Source: Longibaculum muris
GTDB taxonomy: Bacteria; Bacillota_I; Bacilli_A; Erysipelotrichales; Coprobacillaceae
DNA length: 47,425 bases
Direction of reading: 5' to 3'
Assembly (NCBI RefSeq): GCF_004343035.1
Contig: NZ_SMCQ01000023.1
Span: 1 to 47,425, forward strand
Part shown: positions 3,554 through 22,598 of the stretch, piece after piece
Numbering within the stretch: position 1 is the first letter of the stretch
How the letters are laid out: every line of letters starts with the position of its first letter
Program-made: the position numbers and the translations under genes
Notes under the pieces: generated by a model
What the model saw: only the letters and a program-made list of their open reading frames with translations
What the model was told of the DNA's origin: nothing
Databases searched by the model: none

Positions 3554-3577
3554 AAACGTGAGATTCTCACGTTTTTT
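3552..3577. terminator. Bidirectional terminator between msrC and the chemosensory operon
   Basis: The stem ACGTGAG/CTCACGT with loop ATT is flanked by A-tracts and T-tracts on both sides. It lies between the msrC stop and the last gene (cheW) of the minus-strand chemosensory operon, and can end both transcripts. Confidence 0.85.
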
Positions 3578-4004
3578 AAATAATTTCTTCACTTGTTAAA
3601 AATTGGATTGTTTTTTCAATATCTATAAAATAATAAATTTTATTTTCATATTGATAAAGACTTTGAATATACCAAATATCTGATAAAAATTCTTGTTTAT
3701 TTGTTGTAAAAGTCATATTTTGTATATTTTCTAATACTGGTTCTTGACCAATTTGAATCCCAAAATAACAATCTTCATTTTTAACAACTAAGATTGTTGT
3801 ATCAGTTAATGAAAAGACATTTTCATCTAATTGTAAGACGGGTAAAATATTCCCTTTATAATGAAAGATTCCTAAATAATAAAGTGGTAGACATGGAATC
3901 TTTGAAATGGAAACATGTGTACATATTTCAACCATATCACTTAATTTCACTAAATAATTCTTTTGTTGTCCTTGTAAACATAAAACATTTTCCAATGTAT
4001 CCAT
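3576..4004 (-). CDS. cheW: CheW-like coupling protein, last gene of the operon
   Basis: A 142-residue CheW-domain protein that would link the chemoreceptor to CheA in the signalling array. Conserved features are the N-terminal strand VLCLQGQQKNYLVKLSDMVEI and YYLGIFHYKGNILPVLQLDE (usually VxGxxNxRGxIxPVxDL). The ATG at 4004 overlaps the cheA stop as TAATG with AGGG upstream, indicating translational coupling; an in-frame ATG at 4025 has no ribosome-binding site. It is the second CheW of the operon and divergent from the first (10871-11236), so the two may serve different receptors. Confidence 0.85.
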   Translation of the reverse strand: MDTLENVLCLQGQQKNYLVKLSDMVEICTHVSISKIPCLPLYYLGIFHYKGNILPVLQLDENVFSLTDTTILVVKNEDCYFGIQIGQEPVLENIQNMTFTTNKQEFLSDIWYIQSLYQYENKIYYFIDIEKTIQFLTSEEII

Positions 4005-5932
4005 TATAATTTCCCTGCCTTCCATTTTTCAATCAATATCTCTACATCCAAATTCAAACAAATATGTGCCTTACTCAATAAACTAATCCCACTAATTCCA
4101 CTTAAATTACGATAAGCTCCTCCTAGTAAAACTGGTAAACGTTTCATTACTAAACGTTGATTTGATTCGACTTGATCAACCAGCAAGCAGCCTTGTTGCG
4201 TTGCAGTTTTAAAATAAATAAGGAGAGCTTGCTTCAAATCAGGTTTTTCAACTTCATAATAAGAATACAGATCTAAAAATGGAATCAATTCTTCATTTAA
4301 TGTAATGTATTTTTTTCCATTAATTTCTTGAACTTGTTGAAGTTGGGCATTTTGAAAATAAGTTACATATTTTGAAGGAATAGAACAATGATATTCTCCT
4401 AGTATAAAACAAGTTGAATCAATTGTTGTTAAGGATAATGGTAATGTTAAGATAAAAGTAGAGCCCTTATTCAGTTCACTTTCAATATAGATATGACCAC
4501 CAATTTCTTCTAAAATATGTGCCACAACATCTAAACCAACGCCACGTCCTGAATATTGAGTAACTTCTTTATTGGTTGTAAAACCTGGTGTTAAAATAAA
4601 ATTCAAGAGTTCAAAATGAGTATAGTCCTCAATTGGTTTATCTGTTAAAGATAATTCACTAGCTATTTTATAAATCTTTTGAACATCAATTCCTTTACCA
4701 TCATCACTAATAGATATATAAAGTTCTCCACGCCGTATTTCTACATCAAAAACAATTTGACCTTTTTCACTTTTATTGATTTCTAAACGTTTTGCAGTAT
4801 CTTCTATCCCATGATCAACAGCATTACGTAAAATATGAATTAAAGCTTCACTTAAATGTTCTACAATCTTTTGATCTGCTTCAATCTCACCACAATGAAT
4901 AATAAAGTCAACATCTTTATTTTGTGATTGACAAATATCACGAAGTGTTCTTTTCAATTTTGGAACAATTTGTTTGATGGGAACAAGACGCATTTGAATA
5001 ATGGTTTCTTCTAACTGCTTTGACAATTGTTCTAGATGATAGAGAGTACTATCATCAAAATCTTCTACTCCCATTTCTTTTAAGTGATCTTTAACATATT
5101 GAACATTCATCATTATTTCATTAGAAATATTTTCTAGAGTATCTAGTTTTTTTAATTGAATTTGAGATGTTTTTAAGGTTGTTTGATTTTTGACATTTTT
5201 ACTTTGCCGTGTAATTTCTTCACATTTAGATACAAATAAACCATTTTCTAATGTTTTAAAAACTTCATCAAATTCACTTGTTGTTATGCAAAGATAAAAA
5301 CCAACTTTTTGTATAATGTCAGCATTCTGGCTATCATCTAAATCAGCAGGATAGCTTTGAATAGATTGACATTTCTTTTCAATTTGATGGACTAGCATAA
5401 AAGCACGTACATTTTCCATTCGGTATTCTTTTTCAAATGTAATCTTAACAATTTTCCCGTCACCTTTAAAGTAATTTTCAACATCAAAAGTTTCCTGTTT
5501 AATCGCAACATTTTGTTTATTTAATAATCGTTGATGATATTGTTTGGCCTTTTCAATTAATGCTTCACAAGAAACCGGCATATAATTGTCATCATTCATA
5601 AGGCCTAATTCTTTTTCAATAAAATCAAAGACATCAAATAATAAATTAAATAAATCTGCTTCATCTATTTGGATATCTTGTCCATAATCACGATAAACCG
5701 AGAAAATATCTTCCATTTTATGGGTTAATTGTGATAACCCTTCTAATCCCATCATTGCTGATGAGCTTTTCATTGTATGCATAATTCTAAAAATATTTTG
5801 AATATCTTCTAGACTTAGACATTGATTTTCTTCACTATTTAATAATATAACATTTAATTGTTCAATCAACTGGCTTGTTTCAATCATATAAACTTCTAAC
5901 ATTCCCTTTGTTTCTTTATCAAAGAATCCCAT
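4004..5932 (-). CDS. cheA: Chemotaxis histidine kinase CheA
   Basis: A 642-residue cytoplasmic kinase with full CheA layout. The Hpt domain (about 1-110) carries the phosphorylated His52 in IMHTMKSSSAMMG. A P2-like CheY-binding segment lies at about 150-235. The dimerisation helices begin near 260. The ATPase has N box HILRNAVDHGIED, G1 DDGKGID and G2 GRGVGLD. The C-terminal CheW-like regulatory domain is at about 500-640. Key residues look intact, so it should be active. It lies 11 bases after the response-regulator cyclase and overlaps cheW. Confidence 0.96.
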   Translation of the reverse strand: MGFFDKETKGMLEVYMIETSQLIEQLNVILLNSEENQCLSLEDIQNIFRIMHTMKSSSAMMGLEGLSQLTHKMEDIFSVYRDYGQDIQIDEADLFNLLFDVFDFIEKELGLMNDDNYMPVSCEALIEKAKQYHQRLLNKQNVAIKQETFDVENYFKGDGKIVKITFEKEYRMENVRAFMLVHQIEKKCQSIQSYPADLDDSQNADIIQKVGFYLCITTSEFDEVFKTLENGLFVSKCEEITRQSKNVKNQTTLKTSQIQLKKLDTLENISNEIMMNVQYVKDHLKEMGVEDFDDSTLYHLEQLSKQLEETIIQMRLVPIKQIVPKLKRTLRDICQSQNKDVDFIIHCGEIEADQKIVEHLSEALIHILRNAVDHGIEDTAKRLEINKSEKGQIVFDVEIRRGELYISISDDGKGIDVQKIYKIASELSLTDKPIEDYTHFELLNFILTPGFTTNKEVTQYSGRGVGLDVVAHILEEIGGHIYIESELNKGSTFILTLPLSLTTIDSTCFILGEYHCSIPSKYVTYFQNAQLQQVQEINGKKYITLNEELIPFLDLYSYYEVEKPDLKQALLIYFKTATQQGCLLVDQVESNQRLVMKRLPVLLGGAYRNLSGISGISLLSKAHICLNLDVEILIEKWKAGKL

Positions 5933-5943
5933 ATTGTTTATCC

Positions 5944-6879
5944 TTATTTTTCATCATGATACCAAACACAACAGTTTTTACCATGACTTTTTCCTTGATA
6001 AAGAGCTAAATCAGCACAATGGACATTTTCATCAATTTCTAATGCTGGATTATAAGGATATAAACCAAAAGTCATTGTACAATGGAATGTATTTTGTTTA
6101 TGAACGAATTCAAAGCTTTCTATTTCTTCACGAATTTCTTCAACAATTTGTTTTGCCTGTTGTAATGTTAAATTAAATAAAATAATTAAGAATTCCTCTC
6201 CACCCCAACGAATAGCACGATGTTTCACTTTAAAAGAATTTAATATTTCAGCAAAGCAAATTAAAACCTTATCTCCTGCATCATGACCAAATGTATCATT
6301 AATAATTTTAAAGTTATCAATATCTGTCAAAACAAAATAATGGTTTGTTGCTTCATTTTCTTTTTCTGCTAATTCTTTAGGTAAATTCTCAGTAACAAAA
6401 CGACGATTATATAGTCCAGTTAAACTATCACGATAAGCAATATAATTCAATTTTTCCATATTACTTTTTAAAATCTCATTTTGAGCACAGAGTTCATCGC
6501 GTTGTTTTTTGATGAGTAATTGGTTTTGAATACGGGTTAAAAATTCTTCATCGACAAATGGTTTTTTGATGTAATCGTAAGCGCCTGATGATAACCCCTT
6601 AATGACATCTAAATTTTGATCTCTTGCAGTTAAAAAGACGATATTGGCATGACTTTCATCAATTTCTTTAATTTTATAAATCAAATCAAAACCTTCAATA
6701 TCAGGTAAAATGATATCTAATATAATTAAATCAGGATGAATTTTAACAATCATGTCTAAAGCATCTTTACCTGTGTGAACATCATAAATAGTGGCTGGTA
6801 AAACACTTAAAACAGATTTAACTCTTTGACAAATCATTAAACTATCATCTACTATCAATATTTTTTGTTTGTTTATCAC
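5944..6879 (-). CDS. Response regulator-diguanylate cyclase (REC-GGDEF, PleD/WspR-like)
   Basis: A receiver domain (about 1-120; acidic pair D11/D12, phosphoacceptor D55 in ILDIILPD, KKPF lysine) joined by a short helix to a GGDEF domain with an intact GGEEF signature (RWGGEEFLIIL). Phosphorylation, probably by CheA, would switch on c-di-GMP synthesis. The RxxD inhibitory site before GGEEF is absent (KVKH at that place), so product inhibition through it is not expected. I take the GTG at 6879, which has AAAGGTGG 7 bases upstream and follows the cheD stop; an in-frame ATG at 6909 would overlap cheD and lacks a ribosome-binding site. Confidence 0.92.
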   Translation of the reverse strand: MINKQKILIVDDSLMICQRVKSVLSVLPATIYDVHTGKDALDMIVKIHPDLIILDIILPDIEGFDLIYKIKEIDESHANIVFLTARDQNLDVIKGLSSGAYDYIKKPFVDEEFLTRIQNQLLIKKQRDELCAQNEILKSNMEKLNYIAYRDSLTGLYNRRFVTENLPKELAEKENEATNHYFVLTDIDNFKIINDTFGHDAGDKVLICFAEILNSFKVKHRAIRWGGEEFLIILFNLTLQQAKQIVEEIREEIESFEFVHKQNTFHCTMTFGLYPYNPALEIDENVHCADLALYQGKSHGKNCCVWYHDEK

Positions 6880-6892
6880 ATGCACACCACCT

Positions 6893-7363
6893 TTATATGA
6901 CTTTATCATTTCTTAAAGAATGCACTTCTACACGACCATCAAACGCATAAAAAGTAACTGTTCTTCCATAATTTTTACCAACATCTTTTGCAATAACACG
7001 TATTCTTTCCTGTTTTAATATATCAAAAACCATCTGTATATTTTGTTTTCCAATTTGCCATTGTTGATTTACTGATGGAAACATTTCAGCTCCACCAACG
7101 ACTTTAGCCACAATATATCTTCTTCTTGCTCCCGCATGAATCATTTCTTCTAACAATGTTACAACACCAATATCTGCATATTTATATTTCTCCCTTACCT
7201 CTCCACTAGGATGGCGTGGCAAAATGATATGTGCCATACCGGCAACTTGCCTAGCTTCATCATACAAACAAACCCCAATACATGACCCTAATGCATAGGA
7301 TACAAGTATATCTTGTTGGATGGCAATTTTTCCTTCCCCAATGCCAACGATAATCTTTTTCAT
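6893..7363 (-). CDS. cheD: Chemoreceptor glutamine deamidase CheD
   Basis: A 156-residue cytoplasmic enzyme that deamidates receptor glutamines and, in Bacillus, partners CheC. The catalytic Cys28 (ALGSCIGVCLYD) and His45 (GMAHIILP) are present. The place normally held by the third residue, Thr, appears to be Ser22 (VSYALGSC). The KVVGGAEMF and IGKQN segments are typical. It follows cheC by 9 bases and precedes the cyclase gene. CheC and CheD without CheB suggests adaptation by deamidation and CheC/CheD feedback together with CheR methylation. Confidence 0.94.
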   Translation of the reverse strand: MKKIIVGIGEGKIAIQQDILVSYALGSCIGVCLYDEARQVAGMAHIILPRHPSGEVREKYKYADIGVVTLLEEMIHAGARRRYIVAKVVGGAEMFPSVNQQWQIGKQNIQMVFDILKQERIRVIAKDVGKNYGRTVTFYAFDGRVEVHSLRNDKVI

Positions 7364-7372
7364 GATGAAAAG

Positions 7373-7990
7373 TTATTCAAGAAATCTAGGAATGTTTTGA
7401 ATAAAATCATAATCAGGAAGGAATAAGATATGACTCTTGTATTTTTCTTCACCTAGTTTAAAAATTGTTTCGATCATTAAAATATCATCAGTATCAAAGG
7501 CAAAATGTGAGATTGGAACATTTAAGATAGCTCCTGCCATGTCAACACATAATTGTGGAACAAGACATTGTATACTTTTATTAAGTAATCCATTCATAGC
7601 TGTTGCATAAGCATTACAAACAATATTTCCCATCTCACATAATAATGATTCTTCAAGTTCATTTAAATTGTTAAAATCAGCATCTTCTCCTAACAGAGTC
7701 TGGATAATTTTCTCAGTTAACAATTGATCAATCAAAAACAAGAATAATCCAGAAATTTCACCTCTTGCTTCAACAAAGACCCCAACATGTAAAGCATCAA
7801 CCTTGCCAAGAAAATGATAAACCTCTTGATAATGCATAAAATGAACGGTTGATAATTCCAGCTGAAATGAAGCATTTAAAAACTGTGATAAAGCAGTGAC
7901 TGCATTACCTGTCCCAATATTTCCTACCTCTTGTAAAAAATCTTTAATAAGTTCATTGTTTTGAAAATTTTCTTCCATAGCATTCACCAT
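7373..7990 (-). CDS. cheC: CheY-phosphate phosphatase CheC
   Basis: A 205-residue CheC/CheX/FliY-superfamily phosphatase. Both active-site helices keep the D/S-x3-E-x2-N pattern: DFLQEVGNIGTGNA near residue 20 and ESLLCEMGNIVCNAY near residue 118. It should remove phosphate from CheY-type receivers and bind CheD. The ATG at 7990 overlaps the CheY-MCP stop (TAATG), implying coupling. The in-frame ATG at 7978 has a better GGTGA site and may be the real start. Confidence 0.92.
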   Translation of the reverse strand: MVNAMEENFQNNELIKDFLQEVGNIGTGNAVTALSQFLNASFQLELSTVHFMHYQEVYHFLGKVDALHVGVFVEARGEISGLFLFLIDQLLTEKIIQTLLGEDADFNNLNELEESLLCEMGNIVCNAYATAMNGLLNKSIQCLVPQLCVDMAGAILNVPISHFAFDTDDILMIETIFKLGEEKYKSHILFLPDYDFIQNIPRFLE

Positions 7991-10041
7991 TATATCTCAA
8001 ATTTTTCAACAAGACTCTTTAAAATTTGAGCTTGGGCAGATAATTCTTCACTGGCAGCAGCACTTTCTTCAGAAGTTGCTGAGTTTCCTTGAACAATTTC
8101 AGAAATTAATTCAACACTCTTTCTAATTTGGACAATCGCATCTTTTTGTTGTAAGGAAAGTTCTGACATAAGATTTGTCTTTTCTGTCATTTGTAAGACA
8201 TTTTCAACTGAAACTTTTAAACTTTCAGCAGTCTTATCAACAGCACCCATTCCTTCTTCAACCGCTTCATTATTCTTTTCAATTAAATTAGATGTTAACT
8301 TAGAAGCATTGCTTGTCTTTGTTGCCAATCGTCTAATTTCACTAGCAACAACTGAGAACCCTTTGCCTGCTTCACCAGCTCTAGCAGCTTCTACTGAAGC
8401 ATTAAGGGCTAAGATATTTGTTTGAAAAGCAATTTCTTCAATTTCTTTAACAATTGTATTGATTTCACCAGAATTTTGTTTTAAGTGTTTCATTGATTCT
8501 AATAGTTGTTTCATTTGATCATTACTTGAAACAACTTGTTCCCCTACAAATGTTGAAATCTCACGAGATTCAACAGCATTTTGAGCATTAGCTTGAACAG
8601 ATTCAGCAATTTCATTAATACTAACAGCGAGTTCTTCAATTGAACCAGCTTGTTCCGAAGCACCTTGTGCTAAAACTTGCGCACCATTTGAAACTTGTTC
8701 AGCTCCACTTGTCACTTGTTCTGCTGAACTATTAATTTGTTGCATAGCATCTCTTAATAACACAGAGATTTCTTCCATAGCCATATTTAATTGAATAAAT
8801 TCACCTTTAAATTGAATCGTTGGCTGATAATTTAATTGCCCTTTACCAATAGCTTTTAAAACACTTTGAATTTCATTTAAATATTCTTTTAATGTTACAA
8901 CTGTTGAACGCATATCATCCGCTAACTCACCTAATTCATTTTCAGAATGATAAGTTAATGTTTCATTTAAATTCCCATTAGCAATCTCATTTGCTGTAAC
9001 TTTAATTTGTTGGATTGGATCAACAATACTCTTAGTGATAATCAACCATAATGCAATAGTTGTCACAATACAAATAACTGATAGAACTGCTAATAATATC
9101 ACAATTTGCTGACTTAAATCTTGGCTTGATGCCATCTTTTCTTGAGCATCAGTTAAACAATCATCAACAATTTCTGATAAAAGGTTTCTAACAACTTTTG
9201 CTTGTGGTTCATACTTATTAATATATGTGTCATAGGCTTCTTTTTGATTTCCATTTTCCAATAACTGAATCACTTTATCTCTAGGAACTTTTAAAGAATT
9301 AAATTTTTGAACACATTCACTAACCTTTTCTGGACTTGTGACATAGCCTGTTTTTAAATGTTCTAATCCTTCATCTACATTATTAATAGTTATTTTGATT
9401 TGTTCAATTTCTTGATCAATGTTATCCTTCTTTTCACCACTTGATAAAGTAACCAAGCTTCTTCCTACAATTTGAACATTCATACTAATCTCAAAAGAAT
9501 CTTCAACATTAGAAAAAGGCCCTGCATATAAATCAGTCATACGATCAGATAACCCATAAATATTAAAAATAGCAACCCCTACTGTTAAACTGTATAAAAA
9601 GATAATTCCTACAAAGACAGCCATCAATTTCCTACCAATTTTCATATTATCAAAATACTTTCTCATACCTATACCCCCCTTATCAGCATATACAATGGCA
9701 CACACTGTTCTCTTTAAAACATCTTCTTTAAATGGTTTCACAATAAAATCAATAGCTCCTTCGATAACTGCTTCACGAATAATACTTTCCTGTCCAACTG
9801 CTGAACACATGACGATTTTAACTTCTGCATCAATTTCTTTTAATTTTTTCAAAACCTCTATCCCTGACATATGTGGCATTGTAATATCTAATAAAACAAC
9901 ATCAGGTTTTTCATTTGGATACATCGCAAGAGCTTCAATACCATCACTTGCTTCACAAAATACATATTCTTCATTTTGGAGAATATTTTTGATCATCGTA
10001 CGCATAAACTTTGAATCATCTACAATCATAATCTTTTTCAT
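7990..10041 (-). CDS. CheY receiver fused in frame to a methyl-accepting chemotaxis protein
   Basis: One 683-residue frame. Residues 1-120 are a complete CheY: D8/D9, phosphoacceptor D52 (LLDITMP), S80 and K102 (VKPF). From M126 it is a standard receptor: TM1 at about 140-162, a four-helix-type extracellular region, TM2 at about 313-336, HAMP at about 337-390, and a methyl-accepting signalling region with the conserved hairpin tip (EIAFQTNILALNASVEAARA). The junction holds a six-G tract at 9674-9679. Removing one G would end CheY at about 123 residues and leave the receptor its own ATG at 9666, with AAGGGGG 7 bases upstream. The receptor may thus be made both as a fusion and from the internal start. 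A sequencing or assembly error, or slippage, is an open alternative. Confidence 0.9.
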   Translation of the reverse strand: MKKIMIVDDSKFMRTMIKNILQNEEYVFCEASDGIEALAMYPNEKPDVVLLDITMPHMSGIEVLKKLKEIDAEVKIVMCSAVGQESIIREAVIEGAIDFIVKPFKEDVLKRTVCAIVYADKGGIGMRKYFDNMKIGRKLMAVFVGIIFLYSLTVGVAIFNIYGLSDRMTDLYAGPFSNVEDSFEISMNVQIVGRSLVTLSSGEKKDNIDQEIEQIKITINNVDEGLEHLKTGYVTSPEKVSECVQKFNSLKVPRDKVIQLLENGNQKEAYDTYINKYEPQAKVVRNLLSEIVDDCLTDAQEKMASSQDLSQQIVILLAVLSVICIVTTIALWLIITKSIVDPIQQIKVTANEIANGNLNETLTYHSENELGELADDMRSTVVTLKEYLNEIQSVLKAIGKGQLNYQPTIQFKGEFIQLNMAMEEISVLLRDAMQQINSSAEQVTSGAEQVSNGAQVLAQGASEQAGSIEELAVSINEIAESVQANAQNAVESREISTFVGEQVVSSNDQMKQLLESMKHLKQNSGEINTIVKEIEEIAFQTNILALNASVEAARAGEAGKGFSVVASEIRRLATKTSNASKLTSNLIEKNNEAVEEGMGAVDKTAESLKVSVENVLQMTEKTNLMSELSLQQKDAIVQIRKSVELISEIVQGNSATSEESAAASEELSAQAQILKSLVEKFEI

Positions 10042-10043
10042 TT

Positions 10044-10859
10044 TTATTTGATCTCCTTTTTATATACTGAAGGAAAAACTGTAGTTAATTGAGTTTCCTT
10101 CACAGAAAGCATTTCGGCATGTCCAATCATTAAATAACCATCTTTATATAAATGATTTTCTAAAGATTTCACAATTTGATAACGCATATCCTTATGAAAA
10201 TAAATCATTACATTTCGACATAATATTAAATCAAACTGACGATTAATTTTTAATGGTTCCATTAAATTATGTTTATCAAAAGTAATATGTTTTCTAATAT
10301 CATCATCTATAAAAAATGTTGTGTTATTTTTAACATAGCAATATTGTAATTGCCAATAAGGTTCAATTGTTGACAATTGTTTAATGGAATACTCACCATT
10401 TCTTGCAATATCTAAAACATTATCCGATATATCAGTTGCTAGGATTTGGTAATCTAAAGATAATCCTGTCTGTTTCTTATAATCTTCCATCACCATAGCT
10501 AAACAGTAAGCTTCTTCGCCTGTTGAACAACCGGCACACCATATTTTATAAACTGCATTCTTTTTCTTTTCCACAAATTCTGGTAAAAGATTGTTCTTTA
10601 ATAATTGAAAATGCTCGTTTTCCCTTAAAAAATACGTATAATGTGTTGTTAATATATCTACCATTTGTTCAATCAATTGACCACTATGATCTTGATTAAG
10701 CATTTTAACATAGGCTTCAAAACTAGGTATGTTCAAATTTTGTAAGACCTTTGTCAGCCGACATTCTATCAACACTTTTTTCTTTGATAAATCTAATCCA
10801 TAAGATTGTTTCATATATTCCACAATACTTTGAAAAGATTTCTCATCAATTCGAATCAT
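10044..10859 (-). CDS. cheR: Chemoreceptor methyltransferase CheR
   Basis: A 271-residue SAM-dependent methyltransferase that modifies receptor glutamates. It has an N-terminal helical domain (about 1-75), THYTYFLREN linking into the catalytic domain, SAM-binding GCSTGEEAY and ILATDIS, and the post-motif LILCRNVMIYF. Its C-terminus ends close after MIGHAEML..VFPSVYKK as usual. GAGGGATAAC precedes the start. It is 11 bases downstream of cheW and 2 bases upstream of the CheY-MCP gene. It is the only methylation enzyme here, as no CheB esterase is present. Confidence 0.96.
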   Translation of the reverse strand: MIRIDEKSFQSIVEYMKQSYGLDLSKKKVLIECRLTKVLQNLNIPSFEAYVKMLNQDHSGQLIEQMVDILTTHYTYFLRENEHFQLLKNNLLPEFVEKKKNAVYKIWCAGCSTGEEAYCLAMVMEDYKKQTGLSLDYQILATDISDNVLDIARNGEYSIKQLSTIEPYWQLQYCYVKNNTTFFIDDDIRKHITFDKHNLMEPLKINRQFDLILCRNVMIYFHKDMRYQIVKSLENHLYKDGYLMIGHAEMLSVKETQLTTVFPSVYKKEIK

Positions 10860-10870
10860 GTTATCCCTCT

Positions 10871-11236
10871 CTATCCATCTTTATTTTTAATCAAAACATC
10901 TAAAACACTTTCTAATAAAACAAAACATAATTGTTCATGATGAGAAATCACACCTTGGACAAATGGTATCTTTTTCTTTAAGACAATATGGTTGAATGGG
11001 ATGATTTTTTCTTGTGAAACTTCTAAAACATCCTCAACCTTATCAACAACCAAAGCTAACTGCTGATCCTTGATTAATATGGCATAGCTTCCTTGGGTTT
11101 GTTCGTTATGAAAAAGACTTGATAAATCAATCACTTTTTGATCTTCTAAAGAGTCGCAATCAACAATCATATCAACAATTGTTAAAGGCAATAGAAACAA
11201 GACCTGTGAAGATTCAACAACAACATAATAACTCAT
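10871..11236 (-). CDS. cheW: Short CheW-like coupling protein
   Basis: A 121-residue CheW-fold protein, shorter than the usual 140-170. The first strands (SYYVVVESSQVLFLLPLTIVDMIV), the ALVVDKVEDVLEVSQEKIIPF stretch and the VQGVISHHEQLCFVLLE end fit CheW. The middle loop that normally holds the conserved VxGxxNLRG is shortened. It starts 2 bases after the GGDEF-EAL gene, with GAGAGGGGAT upstream. It may be a specialised coupling or adaptor protein for one of the receptors in this operon. Confidence 0.75.
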   Translation of the reverse strand: MSYYVVVESSQVLFLLPLTIVDMIVDCDSLEDQKVIDLSSLFHNEQTQGSYAILIKDQQLALVVDKVEDVLEVSQEKIIPFNHIVLKKKIPFVQGVISHHEQLCFVLLESVLDVLIKNKDG

Positions 11237-11238
11237 TT

Positions 11239-13512
11239 CTATCCCCTCTCTTTAAAAATCATTTTTTCAAATTCATTCACTGGTACAGGTTTTGAAACAA
11301 CATAACCTTGCACCATATCACAATCAATTGTTTTTAAAAATTCTAACTGTAATCCACTCTCTACCCCTTCAGAAACAGTACGCATCTTTAAGCGTTTTGT
11401 CATATCAATGATAGTTTCAATAATCGCACGTTCTCGATCATTTTCCATATCCAAACTCTTGAAAAATGCCCGGTCTAATTTAATAACATCAACATTAATG
11501 CTTGATAACATATTCAGTGATGAATAACCACTTCCAAAATCATCTAATGAACAAGTAAATCCAGCATTATGAATTTTATCAATAGCCCAGATTACAGTTT
11601 CTAAATTTTCTGATAATAATGATTCCGTAATTTCTATTTCAATAAGATGAGGCGGCACATTATATTTTTGTTGAATCAAAATATAATTATCTAAAAAATG
11701 TGGATTATTCAAATGAGCACGGGATAGATTGACCGAAATAGGAGCAGGCGTTAATTTTGCATCAAGCCAAATTCTTATATGCTGACATACACATTCAAAG
11801 ACATATAAATCTAATTTAATAATAAATCCATTTTCTTCAAAGAAAGGGATAAACTCATCTGGTGGTATTAAGCCTTTTTGTGGATTTAACCAACGAACCA
11901 GGGCTTCACCACCTACATAGCGATTACTCTTGAGTTCAATCTTTGGTTGGAAGTAAACAACAAACTCACGATTAGTTAAAGCTTCTTCCATTCGATTCTC
12001 CATGTCTTTTTCTTTTAACATACGCTGATGTTCAGCTTGAGCAAAGAAAGTCAAACGATAGAAAGGATGATTTTTTGAACAAGCTTTACTTTTTCTTGCG
12101 ACATTGGCACGGTCTTGAATAAAGACAACTGAAAGATTTGGATCATCAATCATGTAAGCACCAATCGTAAAGGTTAAAAAATATTTTTCCTGTAATTTTT
12201 TATTAAAATTATTCATTTGTGAAATTGATGAATCTAATAATTCAACAATTGAACTTTCATCATGACGATGTAATAAAATAACAAATTGATCAGCAGCAAT
12301 ACGACAAATCATTTCATCATCTTTTAATTTTGCTTTAATCACATCATGAATATATTTCAATAAACGATTTCCACCCTGATAACCAAAAGCATCATTAATT
12401 AATTTAAAACGACTTATATCAAGAATTAAAAAAGTATAAGTTAAAGGTGGATGGGTTGAAATGAGCTGTCCAGCTTCAATACGAAAACGTGTTTGATTAT
12501 ACCCTTGAGTAACAGTATCAACATAGGCTGTTTCATAGAGCTGTGTATTATTTTTACGATAATTAATAAATACCAGCAATAAAACTCCTGTTAATAAAAT
12601 AATAATTGTAAGTAAAATAATGGTTGAATAAAATGCTAAATCTTGAAATGGACCTAACGCTACATGTTGATCAATCATAAAGATTAAAGACATATCTTTT
12701 AATAAAGGAACATAATAAACAAGTTGAGTATTTTGTTTATTATTTTTCTGATGAAAAACAAAAGAGCCACTTTGTCCTTTTCCAATTGCATCATGAATAT
12801 TTTGAAATTGTTTTTGACTTAATGTACTTTGATTAGAAAGTTCATAGAAAAAGTTATGTCCAATCATTAAATCATTATCATTATTAGACTTCATTACAAA
12901 TGTTCCATCATTTTCAATAACATGGAAATAAGCCTGCTCATCAAAATAATTTTCAGCCAATAAACTATTAATCCATTCTTTACTTTCTAAAGCTATAATT
13001 CCTCCAATAATTTTATCATTTTGATAAACAGGTACCCCATAAATCAAACCATCTTGATTATAAGACTTTAATCCTATACTATCAGTAATGATTTCTTTAC
13101 CTTCTAAGACTTCCATAATCATATCATCATTTGAAAAATTAAAAGCCTGACCTTTATCATTTGTACATTTTCCGTTCATATCCATGAATGATAAAAACGA
13201 AAAATCTAAAGCTTCCCCACGCTTTTGTAAGAAATCTCCAACGCTCCCATGAGCTTCTTTTCTTTCAATATAATTTGATGCTGTAATTCTTAATTCAGAT
13301 AAACTTATATTGGTATTTAAATTCATCTTATCAGCAATACTTTGGGAAATTTCTAACAGATAATGTTCTCCTTGTTGATAGGTCACTTGGCGAATATGAA
13401 CAACAAAATAAGAAGCTAATACAATAACAATAACTGCAACAAGAGATAAAACCAAATAATAAGAACGTAATGGTTTTTTTGTTATCATATTTTTCTTTTG
13501 AGAACTTCCCAT
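11239..13512 (-). CDS. Membrane dCACHE-type sensor with degenerate GGDEF and intact EAL domain
   Basis: A 757-residue predicted c-di-GMP phosphodiesterase. TM1 (about 17-38), an extracellular CACHE-like region (about 40-285), TM2 (about 292-318), GGDEF (about 325-490) and EAL (about 505-750). The cyclase signature has decayed to RIAADQF, so synthesis is unlikely. The EAL domain keeps GGEALVRW, SVNLSRAHL, EITES, DDFGSGYSSL, IKLDRAFF and SEGVE, so hydrolysis of c-di-GMP is likely. The start follows GGGGAG. It sits in the same operon as a receiver-controlled cyclase, giving opposing activities. Confidence 0.93.
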   Translation of the reverse strand: MGSSQKKNMITKKPLRSYYLVLSLVAVIVIVLASYFVVHIRQVTYQQGEHYLLEISQSIADKMNLNTNISLSELRITASNYIERKEAHGSVGDFLQKRGEALDFSFLSFMDMNGKCTNDKGQAFNFSNDDMIMEVLEGKEIITDSIGLKSYNQDGLIYGVPVYQNDKIIGGIIALESKEWINSLLAENYFDEQAYFHVIENDGTFVMKSNNDNDLMIGHNFFYELSNQSTLSQKQFQNIHDAIGKGQSGSFVFHQKNNKQNTQLVYYVPLLKDMSLIFMIDQHVALGPFQDLAFYSTIILLTIIILLTGVLLLVFINYRKNNTQLYETAYVDTVTQGYNQTRFRIEAGQLISTHPPLTYTFLILDISRFKLINDAFGYQGGNRLLKYIHDVIKAKLKDDEMICRIAADQFVILLHRHDESSIVELLDSSISQMNNFNKKLQEKYFLTFTIGAYMIDDPNLSVVFIQDRANVARKSKACSKNHPFYRLTFFAQAEHQRMLKEKDMENRMEEALTNREFVVYFQPKIELKSNRYVGGEALVRWLNPQKGLIPPDEFIPFFEENGFIIKLDLYVFECVCQHIRIWLDAKLTPAPISVNLSRAHLNNPHFLDNYILIQQKYNVPPHLIEIEITESLLSENLETVIWAIDKIHNAGFTCSLDDFGSGYSSLNMLSSINVDVIKLDRAFFKSLDMENDRERAIIETIIDMTKRLKMRTVSEGVESGLQLEFLKTIDCDMVQGYVVSKPVPVNEFEKMIFKERG

Positions 13513-13531
13513 GATTTTATCTCCCCTTTCC

Positions 13532-14893
13532 CTATTTTAATTTATTCATAAAATAAGCAATCTTTTCTTCCCCAAACAAATTAAACATAACATAACATTC
13601 AAAAAATAATGTTTCTCCATTTTCATTAATTCTAAAACTGACTACATAAGCATCTTCTTTTAAAGAAGCCAATTTCTTTAAATGATATGGTTCACAAATT
13701 TCATCAAAAGCCTTTAAATCATCTAAGAAAATACGTGCTCTAAAGTTTTGATAAGTTTCTTCATACTTTGGTGATAGAAAACTTTGCCAAAGTTGAACTG
13801 TTGGTGTATAAACATGATAAGTTAAAGTCATTGTATTGAGATCAACTTTCATAACAAAATCATATTCATGGGTAAAAATCATTTGTAATTGGTGATCTTG
13901 ATTTCCAATTAATTCTTTTAATTGATCTTTAACTTCCATAATTCTTTGTTTTTCGCGTTTTTGAGCATAACGATAAATAATGAGAATTAAGATGATAATT
14001 CCAAGCATTGATGCAATTCTAATTCCCCATAAAAAATGTGAAATTTGTAAAGATAAGACTTCTAAAGAATGTGAAGAAATAATTGTTACAAACTGCCAAT
14101 GGGGATGATTTAATGACTTGGTAGTACCTAGATATAAAGATTGTTGATTACCATTGACTGAATAGATAGCTTTTTGACCAGCTTTGAAATCATTAGCTAA
14201 ATCTTTAACCACAGTTTGTGAATTATCTGCATTTAATAATGTTTGATAAATTGAACTTTCTGATAAATTGATCAAAGGTGAAGCTGGCCCTTTTAAAATC
14301 CAACTCCCATCGCGATTATCAACAACATAAGCTCGCCCATCACCATCATGAAAAGCAAACAGCGTTTCTTTATAAAACTTTTGAATATTGCATTCACAAT
14401 AAATCGCTCCTACCAACTTTTTATCTTGAATAAGAGGCATTTGATAAACTACATACATATTTCCATCTTCTTGACGAAAACAATCTGATACTCCACTTTT
14501 TTGCTTGGATAAAGCAAATTCTTCAATATGTAATTCACTGATATCAAAATTCTGATTTTTGTTATCAATTCCTTGACCACTTTTATCAACATAATATGTC
14601 GCATGAAATTGTCGCATTGTATTAAAGATATCTAATGATTGTGCATCATGTTTTTTTTGAATAACTTTTTGACTAAAAGATTCCATAAATGAAAGATCTT
14701 CAATGATTTTATTATCAATTTGTCGACGTATCATATCTGTTGTATCAGCTAATTGATTATACTCACTGTTTTCAATCATTTCAGTAATTTGTCTAGAAAA
14801 AACATTTGTAATGATAAAAATAACTAGAAAAATAATAAAAGAACTACCAATAAAGAAATATTTTAATTGATGATGAGATACTTTCTTCTTCAT
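13532..14893 (-). CDS. Orphan dCACHE-type membrane sensor without a recognisable output domain
   Basis: A 453-residue membrane protein: TM1 about 12-32, a large extracellular region resembling a double CACHE sensor, TM2 about 287-308, a basic helical linker (KREKQRIMEVKDQLKEL) and a C-terminal PAS-like region of about 120 residues (YDFVMKVDLNTMTLTYHVYTP..) that ends at the gene end. Such regions usually precede GGDEF, kinase or MCP modules, but none follows. It may signal through a partner such as the co-transcribed GGDEF-EAL protein. The nearest GGAG lies 15 bases upstream, with a two-codon ATG-TTA-TGA reading frame between it and the start, suggesting coupled re-initiation. Confidence 0.8.
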   Translation of the reverse strand: MKKKVSHHQLKYFFIGSSFIIFLVIFIITNVFSRQITEMIENSEYNQLADTTDMIRRQIDNKIIEDLSFMESFSQKVIQKKHDAQSLDIFNTMRQFHATYYVDKSGQGIDNKNQNFDISELHIEEFALSKQKSGVSDCFRQEDGNMYVVYQMPLIQDKKLVGAIYCECNIQKFYKETLFAFHDGDGRAYVVDNRDGSWILKGPASPLINLSESSIYQTLLNADNSQTVVKDLANDFKAGQKAIYSVNGNQQSLYLGTTKSLNHPHWQFVTIISSHSLEVLSLQISHFLWGIRIASMLGIIILILIIYRYAQKREKQRIMEVKDQLKELIGNQDHQLQMIFTHEYDFVMKVDLNTMTLTYHVYTPTVQLWQSFLSPKYEETYQNFRARIFLDDLKAFDEICEPYHLKKLASLKEDAYVVSFRINENGETLFFECYVMFNLFGEEKIAYFMNKLK

Positions 14894-14902
14894 AACATTC
14901 TT

Positions 14903-16180
14903 TTATTCTCCTTTAATTTGATCACATTGCAATTGATCATATTCTTTCATTACATTTTCTAATGTTTTTCCCCTAAGCATATCTTGAATTAAATCACGAG
15001 TTGAACCCCAAGTTTCAAAAGGCAGCTTGGTATCACGAACTGGAATTTGATGTTTTCCTCGCATCGTTGATATAAAATCATCAAGTTGTTCTTCTAAATA
15101 ACCATAATCAGGATTTTGTGTAACACTAATCGCGTGTAATTCTTTAGCAATTGTATCTAAATTTTCTTTTTTAGAAACTTCATCAATAAATTCTTTAGCA
15201 TATTCAGCTTTTGGACTATGTGTATTATAAGTTAAATGACGAGCTGTTCCAACAACTGCCATTGCGCCTTTTTCTGATAAAGGAATCCCTGTCATCTGAT
15301 ATTCAAATGAAGCTTTAGACATATCTAATTGTAGGCAATGACATAGACATGCACCTTTTCCATTAACAAAATCTATTCCAGCATCTTTGGCATTACGATG
15401 TTTTGCATCATTGACATCAATATACCCTTTATCTATTAATAATTGAACAAATTCAAATCCCTTTTTCATATAATCACTGATTTTAGTTTTTCCAGTCGCT
15501 AAATCATGAAGTAATGCTTCTTTATCAGATGATTCATAAATTTCACTTAAACCAATAACTAATGCAGGAACAACCAAAGCATAGTCTTTATGAGCAACAT
15601 AAGGTGTAATTCCATTTTTCTTTAGTGTTTCACAAACCGCCAGAAATTCATCTTTTTGTTTAGGAACAGATAATCCATATTGTTCTAGTAAATCAAGATT
15701 CCAATAAAATCCATAACCAGTCATCAATAAAGGTATACAAAAAAAATCATTTCCATCAGTGACTTGCCTATACGCATATTCAGATAAAGAGATTGAATGA
15801 GTGAAATCACGAATACGTGGTAGAAGTCCTGCCCTTTGATACTCTATAACATCTTCATTTTGTAAGATATAAAGATCAACCTCTGGAGATTCACTCTTTA
15901 ATTGATTTAAGATATATTGACGATATTCTTGACTACTCCCATTTAATGTATAATAAGCTGCGACTTCTTCCTTGATGCGCATTTTTGTTTGATCTTTAGC
16001 CATGATACTATGACTCCAAACTTGGCTATTCATTAATTTTGTTGAATATAGACTCAAAGTTACTTCCTGATACGTTGCATATTCTTTCACTTTTCCAGTT
16101 TTGTGATTTTGTGTACAACCAAGAAGGGATAAAATAAGCGCCATTGAAAGAAAAATATAGAGCAATTTGGCTTTTTTCAT
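14903..16180 (-). CDS. Extracellular solute-binding lipoprotein (ABC family 1-like), first gene of the chemosensory operon
   Basis: A 425-residue lipoprotein with signal MKKAKLLYIFLSMALILSLLGC, lipidated at Cys22. The body looks like a sugar-type periplasmic-binding-protein fold (PRIRDFTHSI..YAYRQVTDGNDFFCIPLLMTGYGFYWNLDLLEQYGL). No ABC permease or ATPase gene is nearby. It leads an operon of receptors and Che proteins, so it may act as a ligand-presenting co-receptor rather than for uptake; this is inference. The ATG at 16180 is chosen (GGTGGAG 7 bases upstream); a TTG one codon earlier is possible. A well-formed promoter lies just upstream. Confidence 0.85.
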   Translation of the reverse strand: MKKAKLLYIFLSMALILSLLGCTQNHKTGKVKEYATYQEVTLSLYSTKLMNSQVWSHSIMAKDQTKMRIKEEVAAYYTLNGSSQEYRQYILNQLKSESPEVDLYILQNEDVIEYQRAGLLPRIRDFTHSISLSEYAYRQVTDGNDFFCIPLLMTGYGFYWNLDLLEQYGLSVPKQKDEFLAVCETLKKNGITPYVAHKDYALVVPALVIGLSEIYESSDKEALLHDLATGKTKISDYMKKGFEFVQLLIDKGYIDVNDAKHRNAKDAGIDFVNGKGACLCHCLQLDMSKASFEYQMTGIPLSEKGAMAVVGTARHLTYNTHSPKAEYAKEFIDEVSKKENLDTIAKELHAISVTQNPDYGYLEEQLDDFISTMRGKHQIPVRDTKLPFETWGSTRDLIQDMLRGKTLENVMKEYDQLQCDQIKGE

Positions 16181-16206
16181 CAAAAATCTCCACCTTCCCT
16201 ATATTT

Positions 16207-19008: not shown

Positions 19009-20064
19009 TTATAATTTCTTTTCTATATTGCCTGGATGACTGGCATACATAAGTGCTGTTTCCTGACTTATTTTTCCCTGTTTATATAACTCTACAATTG
19101 CATCATCCATTGTTATCATTCCTGCTTGTTTTTGAGAAGCAATCACATTATCTATTTGATGTGTCTTACCTTCTCTAATTAAAGTTCTAATGGCTTGATT
19201 GCATATCATGACCTCAAAAACAGGAATCATTTTTCCATCAACACTAGGTAATAGCTGTTGAGAAACAACTGCATTTAAAACCATTGATAATTGAACACGA
19301 ATTTGTTGTTGTTGAGTAGAAGGAAAAACATCAATAATACGATCAATCGTATTGGCGACACCCACAGTATGTAAACTAGATAAAATCAGATGTCCGGTTT
19401 CCGCTGCTGTAATCGCTGTTTCAATAGTTTCTAAATCACGCATTTCTCCAACCAAAATAACTTCCGGTGCTTCTCTTAAAGCAGCTCTTAAAGCCGAAAC
19501 ATAGTCTAATGTATCATGATAGACTTCACGTTGAGAAACAATGCTTTTTTGATGGCTATGTAAATATTCAATCGGATCTTCAATGGTAATGATATGTGTA
19601 TTCCGATTACGATTGATTTGGTCAATCATACAAGCTAAGGTTGTAGACTTCCCACTTCCAGCCGGACCTGTCACTAAAACCATTCCTTTTTTAGCCTTTG
19701 ATAAATCAATTAATGATGTTGGAATATGTAAAGCCAAAGGATCAGGTAAAGCAAATTGAACCACACGGATAACCGCGGATAAAGAGTTTCTTTGCTTATA
19801 AGCATTTACACGAAAACGTCCAACATTTGAAATAGAAAAAGAAAAATCGGCATCTCCTATTTCTATCAATTTATCAATATCATCTTTATGGGCAATATGA
19901 TATATTTCACGAATAATATTTTCAGTATCTTGAGGTGACAATTTTATATCATTATACATCTCAATATGTCCATCTTTTTTGATTGCACAAGGCGACCCAG
20001 CGATAATAAAGACATCTGATGCATTCATTGTGATGACATCTTCTAATAATTTTCTAGTTTCCAT
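19009..20064 (-). CDS. pilT: PilT-type retraction ATPase of a type IV pilus-like system
   Basis: A 351-residue hexameric secretion ATPase. Walker A is GPAGSGKSTTLA, the Asp box is IITIEDPIEYLH, Walker B is VILVGEMRDLETI, followed by the His box GHLILSSLHT. The C-terminal AIRTLIREGKTHQIDN is the PilT hallmark, separating it from PilB/GspE. No tetracysteine zinc motif is present, again as in PilT. It is the last gene of a seven-gene operon, overlapping the previous gene by 11 bases. In known systems PilT powers pilus retraction and twitching; no PilB partner lies in this window. Confidence 0.93.
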   Translation of the reverse strand: METRKLLEDVITMNASDVFIIAGSPCAIKKDGHIEMYNDIKLSPQDTENIIREIYHIAHKDDIDKLIEIGDADFSFSISNVGRFRVNAYKQRNSLSAVIRVVQFALPDPLALHIPTSLIDLSKAKKGMVLVTGPAGSGKSTTLACMIDQINRNRNTHIITIEDPIEYLHSHQKSIVSQREVYHDTLDYVSALRAALREAPEVILVGEMRDLETIETAITAAETGHLILSSLHTVGVANTIDRIIDVFPSTQQQQIRVQLSMVLNAVVSQQLLPSVDGKMIPVFEVMICNQAIRTLIREGKTHQIDNVIASQKQAGMITMDDAIVELYKQGKISQETALMYASHPGNIEKKL

Positions 20065-20449
20065 CCTCTACCTCCTTATTTTCTGTTTGAAAAGAAACAA
20101 TGTGTAGATTTTCATCTTGCACTTGAAAAGTTAATTTTAAATCCTGATCTTCATTAATTGAATCAATCAAGCAATACTTTTGATTTTGATAAATATAATG
20201 AATATTCTTTGATTTTAATTGTTGTTCAATATCTTTTGGCTCTAATTGTTCATAGACTGTCAAAAGATGAGATTGTGCCTGATAGTATTGTTTTGTTAAG
20301 TTCATTTGTCGTAAGGTTGACTCATAATATGAATGTGCCCTTAATGAAGCAAGGGTAGCTAAAATCAACATGACTAAAACCACAAAAAGCATAAATATAC
20401 TTGGAGCCCCAATACTCATATGAAATTCTTGTTTTTCTTTACTCATCAT
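20054..20449 (-). CDS. Small single-pass membrane protein of the pilus-like operon
   Basis: 131 residues: a short cytoplasmic head, one hydrophobic segment (SIFMLFVVLVMLILATLASLRA) and an external helical region. It resembles pilin-like or TadE-like subunits in shape but has no G|FTLIE prepilin site. I recall similar proteins next to DUF4860 and PilT genes in gut Firmicutes, without known function. ATGs at 20449 and 20446 share one GGAGG; the frame also runs to a TTG at 20461. It overlaps both neighbours. Confidence 0.7.
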   Translation of the reverse strand: MMSKEKQEFHMSIGAPSIFMLFVVLVMLILATLASLRAHSYYESTLRQMNLTKQYYQAQSHLLTVYEQLEPKDIEQQLKSKNIHYIYQNQKYCLIDSINEDQDLKLTFQVQDENLHIVSFQTENKEVEDGN

Positions 20450-20807
20450 GATTTCCTCCAATCACAAAAGGAAGTTCATTTAAACATTTATCATCCTCAT
20501 AAATTTTAATGACACCATGTTTCACTTCATCTTGATAGATAATAAGCGAAAAATGGTCACCTTGATAAGTAGAATCATCAATCTTTTGAACATCAAATAG
20601 TTGATCTGGAGCAATCTTGGGATGGGCCTGCATCGTAGCAATCATACTTTCTGCTTTTAATAAAGTTTGCGATAAAGATGTTGCTTGTGCTTGACGCTGC
20701 TTTGCTTGAACAATAAAAGTGACACAGAATGTTGTTGAAATAGCAAAGAAGAAGATTACAATTATCAGTTCCATTAAATATGAAAAAGAATGTTCTTTTG
20801 ACTTCAT
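20439..20807 (-). CDS. Pilin-like small membrane protein
   Basis: 122 residues with an N-terminal segment KEHSFSYLMELIIVIFFFAI that resembles a class III prepilin leader: a hydrophobic helix with Glu at about position +5. The usual Gly before the cut is replaced by Ser, so processing is uncertain. The rest is a small beta-rich domain (YQGDHFSLIIYQDEVKHGVIKIY). GGAGGAGATTTT precedes the start. Probable minor pilin or pseudopilin of the operon. Confidence 0.7.
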   Translation of the reverse strand: MKSKEHSFSYLMELIIVIFFFAISTTFCVTFIVQAKQRQAQATSLSQTLLKAESMIATMQAHPKIAPDQLFDVQKIDDSTYQGDHFSLIIYQDEVKHGVIKIYEDDKCLNELPFVIGGNHDE

Positions 20808-20818
20808 AAAATCTCCTC

Positions 20819-21268
20819 CTAACGATGTATATAAACAGTTAACTGTTCACTTCTTTGATGTTTTGTCACAATAAAAGTATAAAGCTGATGATCATAAGAA
20901 ATTTGAAAATCATCGATTGCAAAAAGTTTTTCGCCTTCACTAAAGAGTGGTGTATATTGACTATCAGCATATATTTCTTGTAAATAACCATCTTGATAAT
21001 AAATATATGTTATTGTTTTTTGGTTTTGAATAATAAGACAAGGATGTTGATTGATTGTTTTGACTTGAATCATTTGCTGATTTTCATTTTCTTTAAGTTT
21101 GGTATGAATATAGGATAAGGGAATGGTTAAATCTTCTTGTTGTAAAATACTTTCATGAATATTTTGATAGCCTTGTATTTCACTCGATATGATAAAGAAT
21201 GAACCAATCACAAAGATGAGAATCAATAATAAATTCATTAAGGATTGAATATGTGATTGTCTACTCAT
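20819..21268 (-). CDS. DUF4860-like membrane protein
   Basis: 149 residues: MSRQSHIQSLMNLLLILIFVIGSFFIISSEIQGYQNI forms a single N-terminal membrane helix, followed by a beta-rich external domain (CLIIQNQKTITYIYYQDGYLQEIYAD). The layout recalls DUF4860, a family seen beside PilT/GspF gene sets. The ATG at 21268 has AAAAGGAG 8 bases upstream; the open frame reaches 21286. It overlaps the preceding gene as ATGAGTAG. Function unknown. Confidence 0.7.
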   Translation of the reverse strand: MSRQSHIQSLMNLLLILIFVIGSFFIISSEIQGYQNIHESILQQEDLTIPLSYIHTKLKENENQQMIQVKTINQHPCLIIQNQKTITYIYYQDGYLQEIYADSQYTPLFSEGEKLFAIDDFQISYDHQLYTFIVTKHQRSEQLTVYIHR

Positions 21269-21560
21269 AATCATTCTCCTTTTCATAGACTCTAATCGTT
21301 GGTTTTAAGTTATCTCCTTCAAAATGATAAAGAATATGATAATCATCTTCATTAACCAATAAGCCATAATTTTTCTTTAAATATTCAATATCTTGAGGAT
21401 ACTTTCCTTCAATACTATAACATTTTAAACTTAATTGTAAGATTGTATCATTTACTCTCTTTAAATCTTCATCCTTAGAATACTCATCAGCATATTGTAC
21501 CCCTAAAACAACCAAAACCACAAAAGCTAGAATAAATAAACATTTCAATAATAATTTCAT
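21261..21560 (-). CDS. Small membrane protein of the pilus-like operon
   Basis: 99 residues with one N-terminal hydrophobic helix (LLLKCLFILAFVVLVVLGVQYADE) and a compact polar domain (LKCYSIEGKYPQDIEYLKKNYGLLV..YHILYHFEGDNLKPTIRVYE). The 'YPxxIEYLKKNYGL' pattern resembles the globular part of small pseudopilins. The ATG at 21560 has AGGTGA just upstream; GTG at 21569 is the other option. It follows GspF directly. No clear prepilin site. Confidence 0.65.
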   Translation of the reverse strand: MKLLLKCLFILAFVVLVVLGVQYADEYSKDEDLKRVNDTILQLSLKCYSIEGKYPQDIEYLKKNYGLLVNEDDYHILYHFEGDNLKPTIRVYEKENDYE

Positions 21561-21569
21561 AACATTCAC

Positions 21570-22598
21570 CTACAATGATGATAAAATACTCACAATTGGT
21601 AACATAACTGAAAGTAATACAATTCCTACAATAACTGATAAGAAAGTCACCATTGTTGGTTCAATAACATTTAAAAAATGAGCAATGGATTCATTCACTT
21701 CATCTTGATAAGTCATTGATAATTGCTGAAAGATTTGATCGACTTGACCAGTTTTAATTCCCACTTGTAAGATATTGAGTTTCATACCATGATAGATTTG
21801 ATTATTTGCGAGGGTTTCTTCAAAAGGCATATCTGCTTGTAAATCAACTAGACATTTTTTAAGATTTTCTTTTAATTGCTTTTCTTCAATTAAAGGGAGA
21901 GTATATTGAATAGCATCTTCAAATTCATAACCACTTGATATAAACATCGAAAAAGCATAAGTCATTTGGGCATGACTTAAAGCATAAGAAAGCTTCTTCA
22001 TAAAGGGCATACGATAAATAAAGACACTTAATAAATCAACATGTTTGATTTTGGCATAAATGAAAATAGAAATTAAGCTTATAAAGACTATGGTTAAAAC
22101 TAAAAAACCCATGAATGAAAAAATCTGACCGCATTTCATAAACGTATAAGCATAAGTAGAAAGCTCTCCACCAAGACTTTTTAAAACACCTTGAAAGATG
22201 GGAAGAACTTTAAAAACAATGACTCCAACAACCACTTGCATCATCAATAATAAAACAATTGGATAAGTGATTGCCTGTTTCAAAGATGATGACATATCTT
22301 TCATACGTTGATAATAATCTGATAATGATGACATGACTCCATCTAAATGTCCACTGATTTCTCCAGCTTCTAATAAATGAACCATATAATCATCAAAAGC
22401 TTGAGTTTTTGAGATAGCTTGGCTTAAAGTTGTATCTTCTTGTAAGTTTTCTAAAACTTCTTTTAAAACTGTCTTTAATCGGGGATTATCTTCTGATTGT
22501 TCAATCATATCAATTCCTTGATAAATATCAAAACCAGCATTTATAATCAATGCCATTGATTTGGCAAAAGTTTCTTTTTCTTCAAAGCTTAATTTCAT
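21570..22598 (-). CDS. GspF/PilC-family inner-membrane platform protein
   Basis: 342 residues with two GspF repeats, each ending in membrane helices. Typical motifs are FAKSMALIINAGFDIYQGID, LLEAGEISGHLDGVM, SYALSHAQMTYAFSMFISSGYEFEDAI and LQVGIKTGQVDQIFQQLSMTYQDEV. Three membrane segments lie at about 110-135, 155-180 and 315-340. In type IV pili and type II secretion it is the platform driven by the ATPases. GGAGGATG precedes the start. It is 12 bases after the transglutaminase gene. Confidence 0.92.
   Translation of the reverse strand: MKLSFEEKETFAKSMALIINAGFDIYQGIDMIEQSEDNPRLKTVLKEVLENLQEDTTLSQAISKTQAFDDYMVHLLEAGEISGHLDGVMSSLSDYYQRMKDMSSSLKQAITYPIVLLLMMQVVVGVIVFKVLPIFQGVLKSLGGELSTYAYTFMKCGQIFSFMGFLVLTIVFISLISIFIYAKIKHVDLLSVFIYRMPFMKKLSYALSHAQMTYAFSMFISSGYEFEDAIQYTLPLIEEKQLKENLKKCLVDLQADMPFEETLANNQIYHGMKLNILQVGIKTGQVDQIFQQLSMTYQDEVNESIAHFLNVIEPTMVTFLSVIVGIVLLSVMLPIVSILSSL

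Follow-up and report, generated by a model that had tools for sequence, protein, structure and literature searches.

As assembled, the chemosensory operon of Longibaculum muris encodes a CheY-like receiver and an MCP chemoreceptor in a single open frame, and we propose, with a probability of roughly 0.7, that these are ancestrally separate cheY and mcp genes joined by one extra G, carried either by the isolate or by its assembly. Of these two origins, a slippage mutation that added one base in the isolate itself is given slightly less than even odds, and a consensus error in the assembly, which is counted inside the same 0.7, is a possible but considerably weaker candidate. A one-base indel is preferred because the fused frame occurs in a single genome, the relatives are unfused and the MCP has kept its own start and Shine-Dalgarno sequence; frame transitions confined to a single genome are classed as probable indel mutations or sequencing errors (PMC3711429). 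The nearest unfused orthologues, which weigh against this explanation by their distance, are only 52-54% identical.

Within the window, that is, the whole stretch of 47,425 nucleotides that was analyzed, reading-frame analysis finds the minus strand open from 10041 to 7990 as one frame of 683 codons, so that the CheY frame does continue into the MCP, as an earlier note on this DNA had claimed. The predicted 683-residue protein (7990..10041, minus strand) matches Pfam Response_reg at residues 4-112, 4HB_MCP_1 at 132-308, HAMP at 335-382 and MCPsignal at 504-649. Its receiver part (9670..10041, minus strand) is of CheY type, with a Response_reg score of 103 bits and phosphorylation residues D8, D9, D52, S80 and K102 that are intact and invariant in alignment A1; the remainder, in which 4HB sensor, HAMP and MCPsignal are all present, is a transmembrane MCP, and signs of decay are absent from the domains of both.

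On the minus strand the junction reads GAT AAG GGG GGT ATA GGT ATG. Its G6 tract (9679-9674 on the minus strand; C6 at 9674-9679 on the plus strand) is both the MCP Shine-Dalgarno and the site at which the frames differ, and is separated by 7 bases from the ATG (9666-9664) that opens an MCP of 558 residues (7990..9666, minus strand). When the tract length alone is edited in silico, G5 ends CheY at residue 123, with ADKGV as its last residues, which is the length given in the earlier note and falls among the 120-124 residues of the relatives' CheY proteins (except one, whose longest ORF has 140). G8 similarly yields a CheY of 124 residues, G4 one of 129 and G7 one of 130; G3, G6 and G9 read through, and CheY and MCP are thus apart at two-thirds of tract lengths.

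Comparison with relatives gave no support for a conserved CheY-MCP fusion family. No second fusion of this kind was found in about 1,100 genome searches (partly overlapping sets of 60, 316, 392 and 297 genomes), in a single scan of species-representative contigs or in the fetched loci. The two closest operons with the order CheR, CheY, MCP, CheC/X, CheD are those of Anaerovorax odorimutans SL.3.17 (L039, 54% identity) and of genome G910 (L258, 52% identity over the MCP); in both, cheY has a stop of its own, located 14 (L039) and 22 (L258) bases upstream of the MCP ATG. Genomes G005, G052 and G232 also encode the two proteins separately, in the opposite order (MCP-CheY). The start of the MCP aligns with those of the two unfused orthologues (the three starts are MRKYFDNMKIG, MKTYFKNLKIS and MKDWIKNLKIG), and the G tract is absent from the relatives, including L039 and L258; G5 as the probable ancestral length is thus drawn from relatives that have no such tract. 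A scan of viral contigs gave no match, and plasmids matched over short stretches only, covering at most 6% of the query. The case resembles the singleton frame transitions described with GeneTack (PMC3711429) in being restricted to one genome, in turning on a one-base difference and in having unfused relatives, and differs from them in that the shift joins two complete genes rather than breaking one.

The G5 form would be a routine junction in this genome. The MCP Shine-Dalgarno, AAGGGGGG, lies 7 bases before an ATG conserved with the orthologues, which fits the usual spacing of 5-10 bases, and placement of such a site within the last codons of the upstream gene is a common junction type here: near copies of the G5 junction are AAAGGGGGTTTAAAAATG at C11:20972 and AAAGGGGTTATAGATATG on contig C9 (L182), and a further Shine-Dalgarno inside an upstream gene is TTGGGGGGATTAAATAATG on contig C2. 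Only two close spacings are more frequent than the 2-base gap that the G5 form would have, which occurs in 26 of 453 pairs. Close-packed operon junctions of the translational coupling type, of which this genome has many, would share the layout of the G5 form exactly and differ from the assembled junction in that the latter has one G too many, which puts the upstream stop out of frame. Across 370 close same-strand pairs, 16 one-base indels in G runs would fuse neighbors in frame, including one at a different junction within the chemosensory operon (10871-13512), and indels in A or T runs would add about 90 more.

In 1.25 Mb of sampled genome, G/C runs of at least 6 number 7, whereas dinucleotide content predicts about 42, a roughly sixfold depletion, and over half of those that remain are Shine-Dalgarno sites. 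An ATG lies 7-8 bases downstream of 4 of the 7 G6+ runs, compared with 0 of 7 in controls, and 4-11 bases downstream of 58 of 196 G5 runs, compared with 21 of 196 for C5 controls; of the G6+ runs, the CheY-MCP tract alone lies deep within an ORF. Together with the 7-base spacing and the conserved ATG, this genome-wide enrichment of G runs before ATGs bears out the proposal that the tract is the MCP Shine-Dalgarno. The broader idea that one homopolymer acts as slippage site, linker and ribosome-binding site survives in the last of these roles and finds no support as regards slippage or switching; a ribosome-binding site, a potential linker and a potential slip site coincide in one tract because ordinary operon packing yields such junctions.

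From this anatomy, a mechanism can be outlined for the one-base indel. In the normal junction, GAT AAG GGG GTA TAG GT ATG, the G-rich Shine-Dalgarno of the MCP would sit inside the last codons of cheY, whose stop would precede the MCP ATG by 2 bases; one added G would remove that stop and set both genes in one frame. Ribosomes started at cheY would then read AAG GGG GGT ATA GGT into the MCP and make the 683-residue fusion, and initiation at the MCP ATG by ribosomes recruited to AAGGGGGG could continue to supply a free receptor of 558 residues. Free CheY would be lost, arising only through slips into the other frames, both of which stop early. CheA keeps its P2 domain and so could remain able to phosphorylate a receiver tethered in this way; receiver-GGDEF would stay as a free output. 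This order of events, the dual translation and the loss of free CheY are what we infer from the layout of the genes.

Whether the extra G belongs to the isolate or to its assembly is informed by a census of frameshifts in which G005 served as reference; among the compared genomes, its genus is the closest as judged by PtsI (97%). The 233 genes compared (215 kb), which contain 137 A/T runs of at least 7 and 31 G/C runs of 5, gave none, with a sensitivity of 82% on simulated indels (192/233); errors therefore seem infrequent, which favors a real G6, and the census bounds their rate at roughly fewer than 2 per 100 kb, a figure that cannot clear any single site. This result counts against a consensus error with a true tract of G5, which we hold to be considerably less likely than the isolate mutation, even as a one-base homopolymer miscount would be the simplest artefact and would restore an ordinary junction. 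An ab initio scan for frame switches over 1.25 Mb was dropped, as it recovered only 17 of 300 simulated indels. Separately, a phage tail-sheath-like gene near C3 124518 (L170, minus strand), named from its residues only, seems to shift frame without a start codon and is perhaps a decaying prophage gene.

The operon in which the junction lies runs CheW, CheR, CheY-MCP, CheC/CheX-type, CheD, receiver-GGDEF, CheA, CheW, all on the minus strand. Pfam searches identify the CheW-like coupling protein (10871..11236), the CheR methyltransferase (10044..10859), the CheC/CheX-type phosphatase (7373..7990), the CheD deamidase (6893..7363), the CheA kinase with Hpt, P2, ATPase and CheW domains (4004..5932) and the second CheW (3576..4025); the receiver-GGDEF diguanylate cyclase spans 5944..6909, and an EAL/GGDEF protein precedes the operon. 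At 3576-16183 the window thus holds a chemosensory operon with one receptor, together with receiver-GGDEF and GGDEF-EAL proteins, and PilT/PilC-type genes are nearby: a pilus ATPase of the PilT family (423 bits, cut-off 319) and a T2SSF/PilC-type protein both lie about 10 kb off, at 19009-22598. The source genome (3.17 Mb in 56 contigs, estimated 100% complete) has a single MCP gene, and no FliM was found in it. Given this setting, the outputs of the pathway are likely to be c-di-GMP and perhaps pili, the receiver-GGDEF protein being the likely freely diffusing one. All other receiver domains of the genome sit in frames of at least 198 residues, which makes this CheY its only single-domain CheY-like receiver.

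This setting bears on a second explanation, namely a fixed, working fusion in which the receiver is tethered to the sole chemoreceptor and serves locally as a phosphate sink or, bound to the array, as a regulator, with receiver-GGDEF as the diffusible output. The frame is open, with receiver residues and receptor domains intact; with a single MCP, no FliM and every other receiver in a frame of 198 residues or more, a free motor-binding CheY may be unneeded. The topology is also compatible, as the N-terminus of the MCP is cytoplasmic in this receptor class. A precedent of a sort for receptor and receiver domains in one chain is offered by a Lachnospiraceae MAG, in which a minus-strand gene (L055:1345-3912) encodes an Fe-only hydrogenase, an MCP signaling domain and a C-terminal receiver in one frame. 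That protein shows no sign of a separate start; in CheY-MCP, unlike in L055, the receiver precedes a membrane-type receptor that retains a start of its own.

Against a fixed fusion stand the relatives compared, all of which are unfused, and the intact Shine-Dalgarno and ATG of the MCP, which would be needless in an old fusion. The linker between CheY and MCP, moreover, amounts to a few residues, in contrast to that of an AmtB-PII fusion of 561 residues (L180:5073-6758, contig C7, minus strand), which is the only other fusion relative to G005, where the two genes are adjacent and in the opposite order; its linker of about 40 residues and its join without a ribosome-binding site are what a settled fusion would have. 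A fixed fusion is thus regarded as doubtful. So, by a shade more, is the arrangement it would entail, with the tethered pair permanent, a phosphate sink built into the array, free MCP made from the internal start and receiver-GGDEF as the only output able to diffuse.

Phase variation, one of the options named in the earlier note, would act here through slipped-strand mispairing, with G3, G6 and G9 fusing the proteins and other lengths separating them. Poly-G contingency loci, in which a G homopolymer sets the reading frame, occur in Campylobacter, Neisseria and Helicobacter, and the present tract is like them in being a G homopolymer at a frame-deciding site, with two of every three lengths giving separate proteins. 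It is, however, shorter than theirs and lies in a genome depleted of long tracts (the 7 runs versus about 42 above), and no relative shares the tract or the fusion. Its six bases also fall below the minimum of 7 that GeneTack sets for repeats (PMC3711429). A full-text literature search, represented mostly by titles and abstract openings, brought up no paper describing phase variation at a cheY-mcp junction. On this evidence phase variation is very improbable.

Still less probable is programmed ribosomal or transcriptional slippage that would yield both the fusion and free CheY. The in-frame G GGG GGT corresponds to the slippery pattern X XXY YYZ in form only, and shifts of -1 and +1 would both meet an early stop; nevertheless, no stimulatory RNA fold stands out at the junction (z -0.55), which also has no separate upstream Shine-Dalgarno, and the site is unconserved, being absent in L039 and L258, in a genome where packed junctions of this geometry are routine. 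Phase variation and programmed slippage were consequently both rejected as leading explanations.

In summary, if the fusion is real and kept, this organism would have a pared-down chemosensory array in which the one CheY stays bound to its receptor, and would provide a natural test of a tethered receiver as sink or adaptation device. If, as is more likely, the junction reflects a one-base event, it illustrates how one base more in a homopolymer can produce a spurious multi-domain protein that looks genuine, because compact operons often place the ribosome-binding site of one gene in the end of the preceding one.
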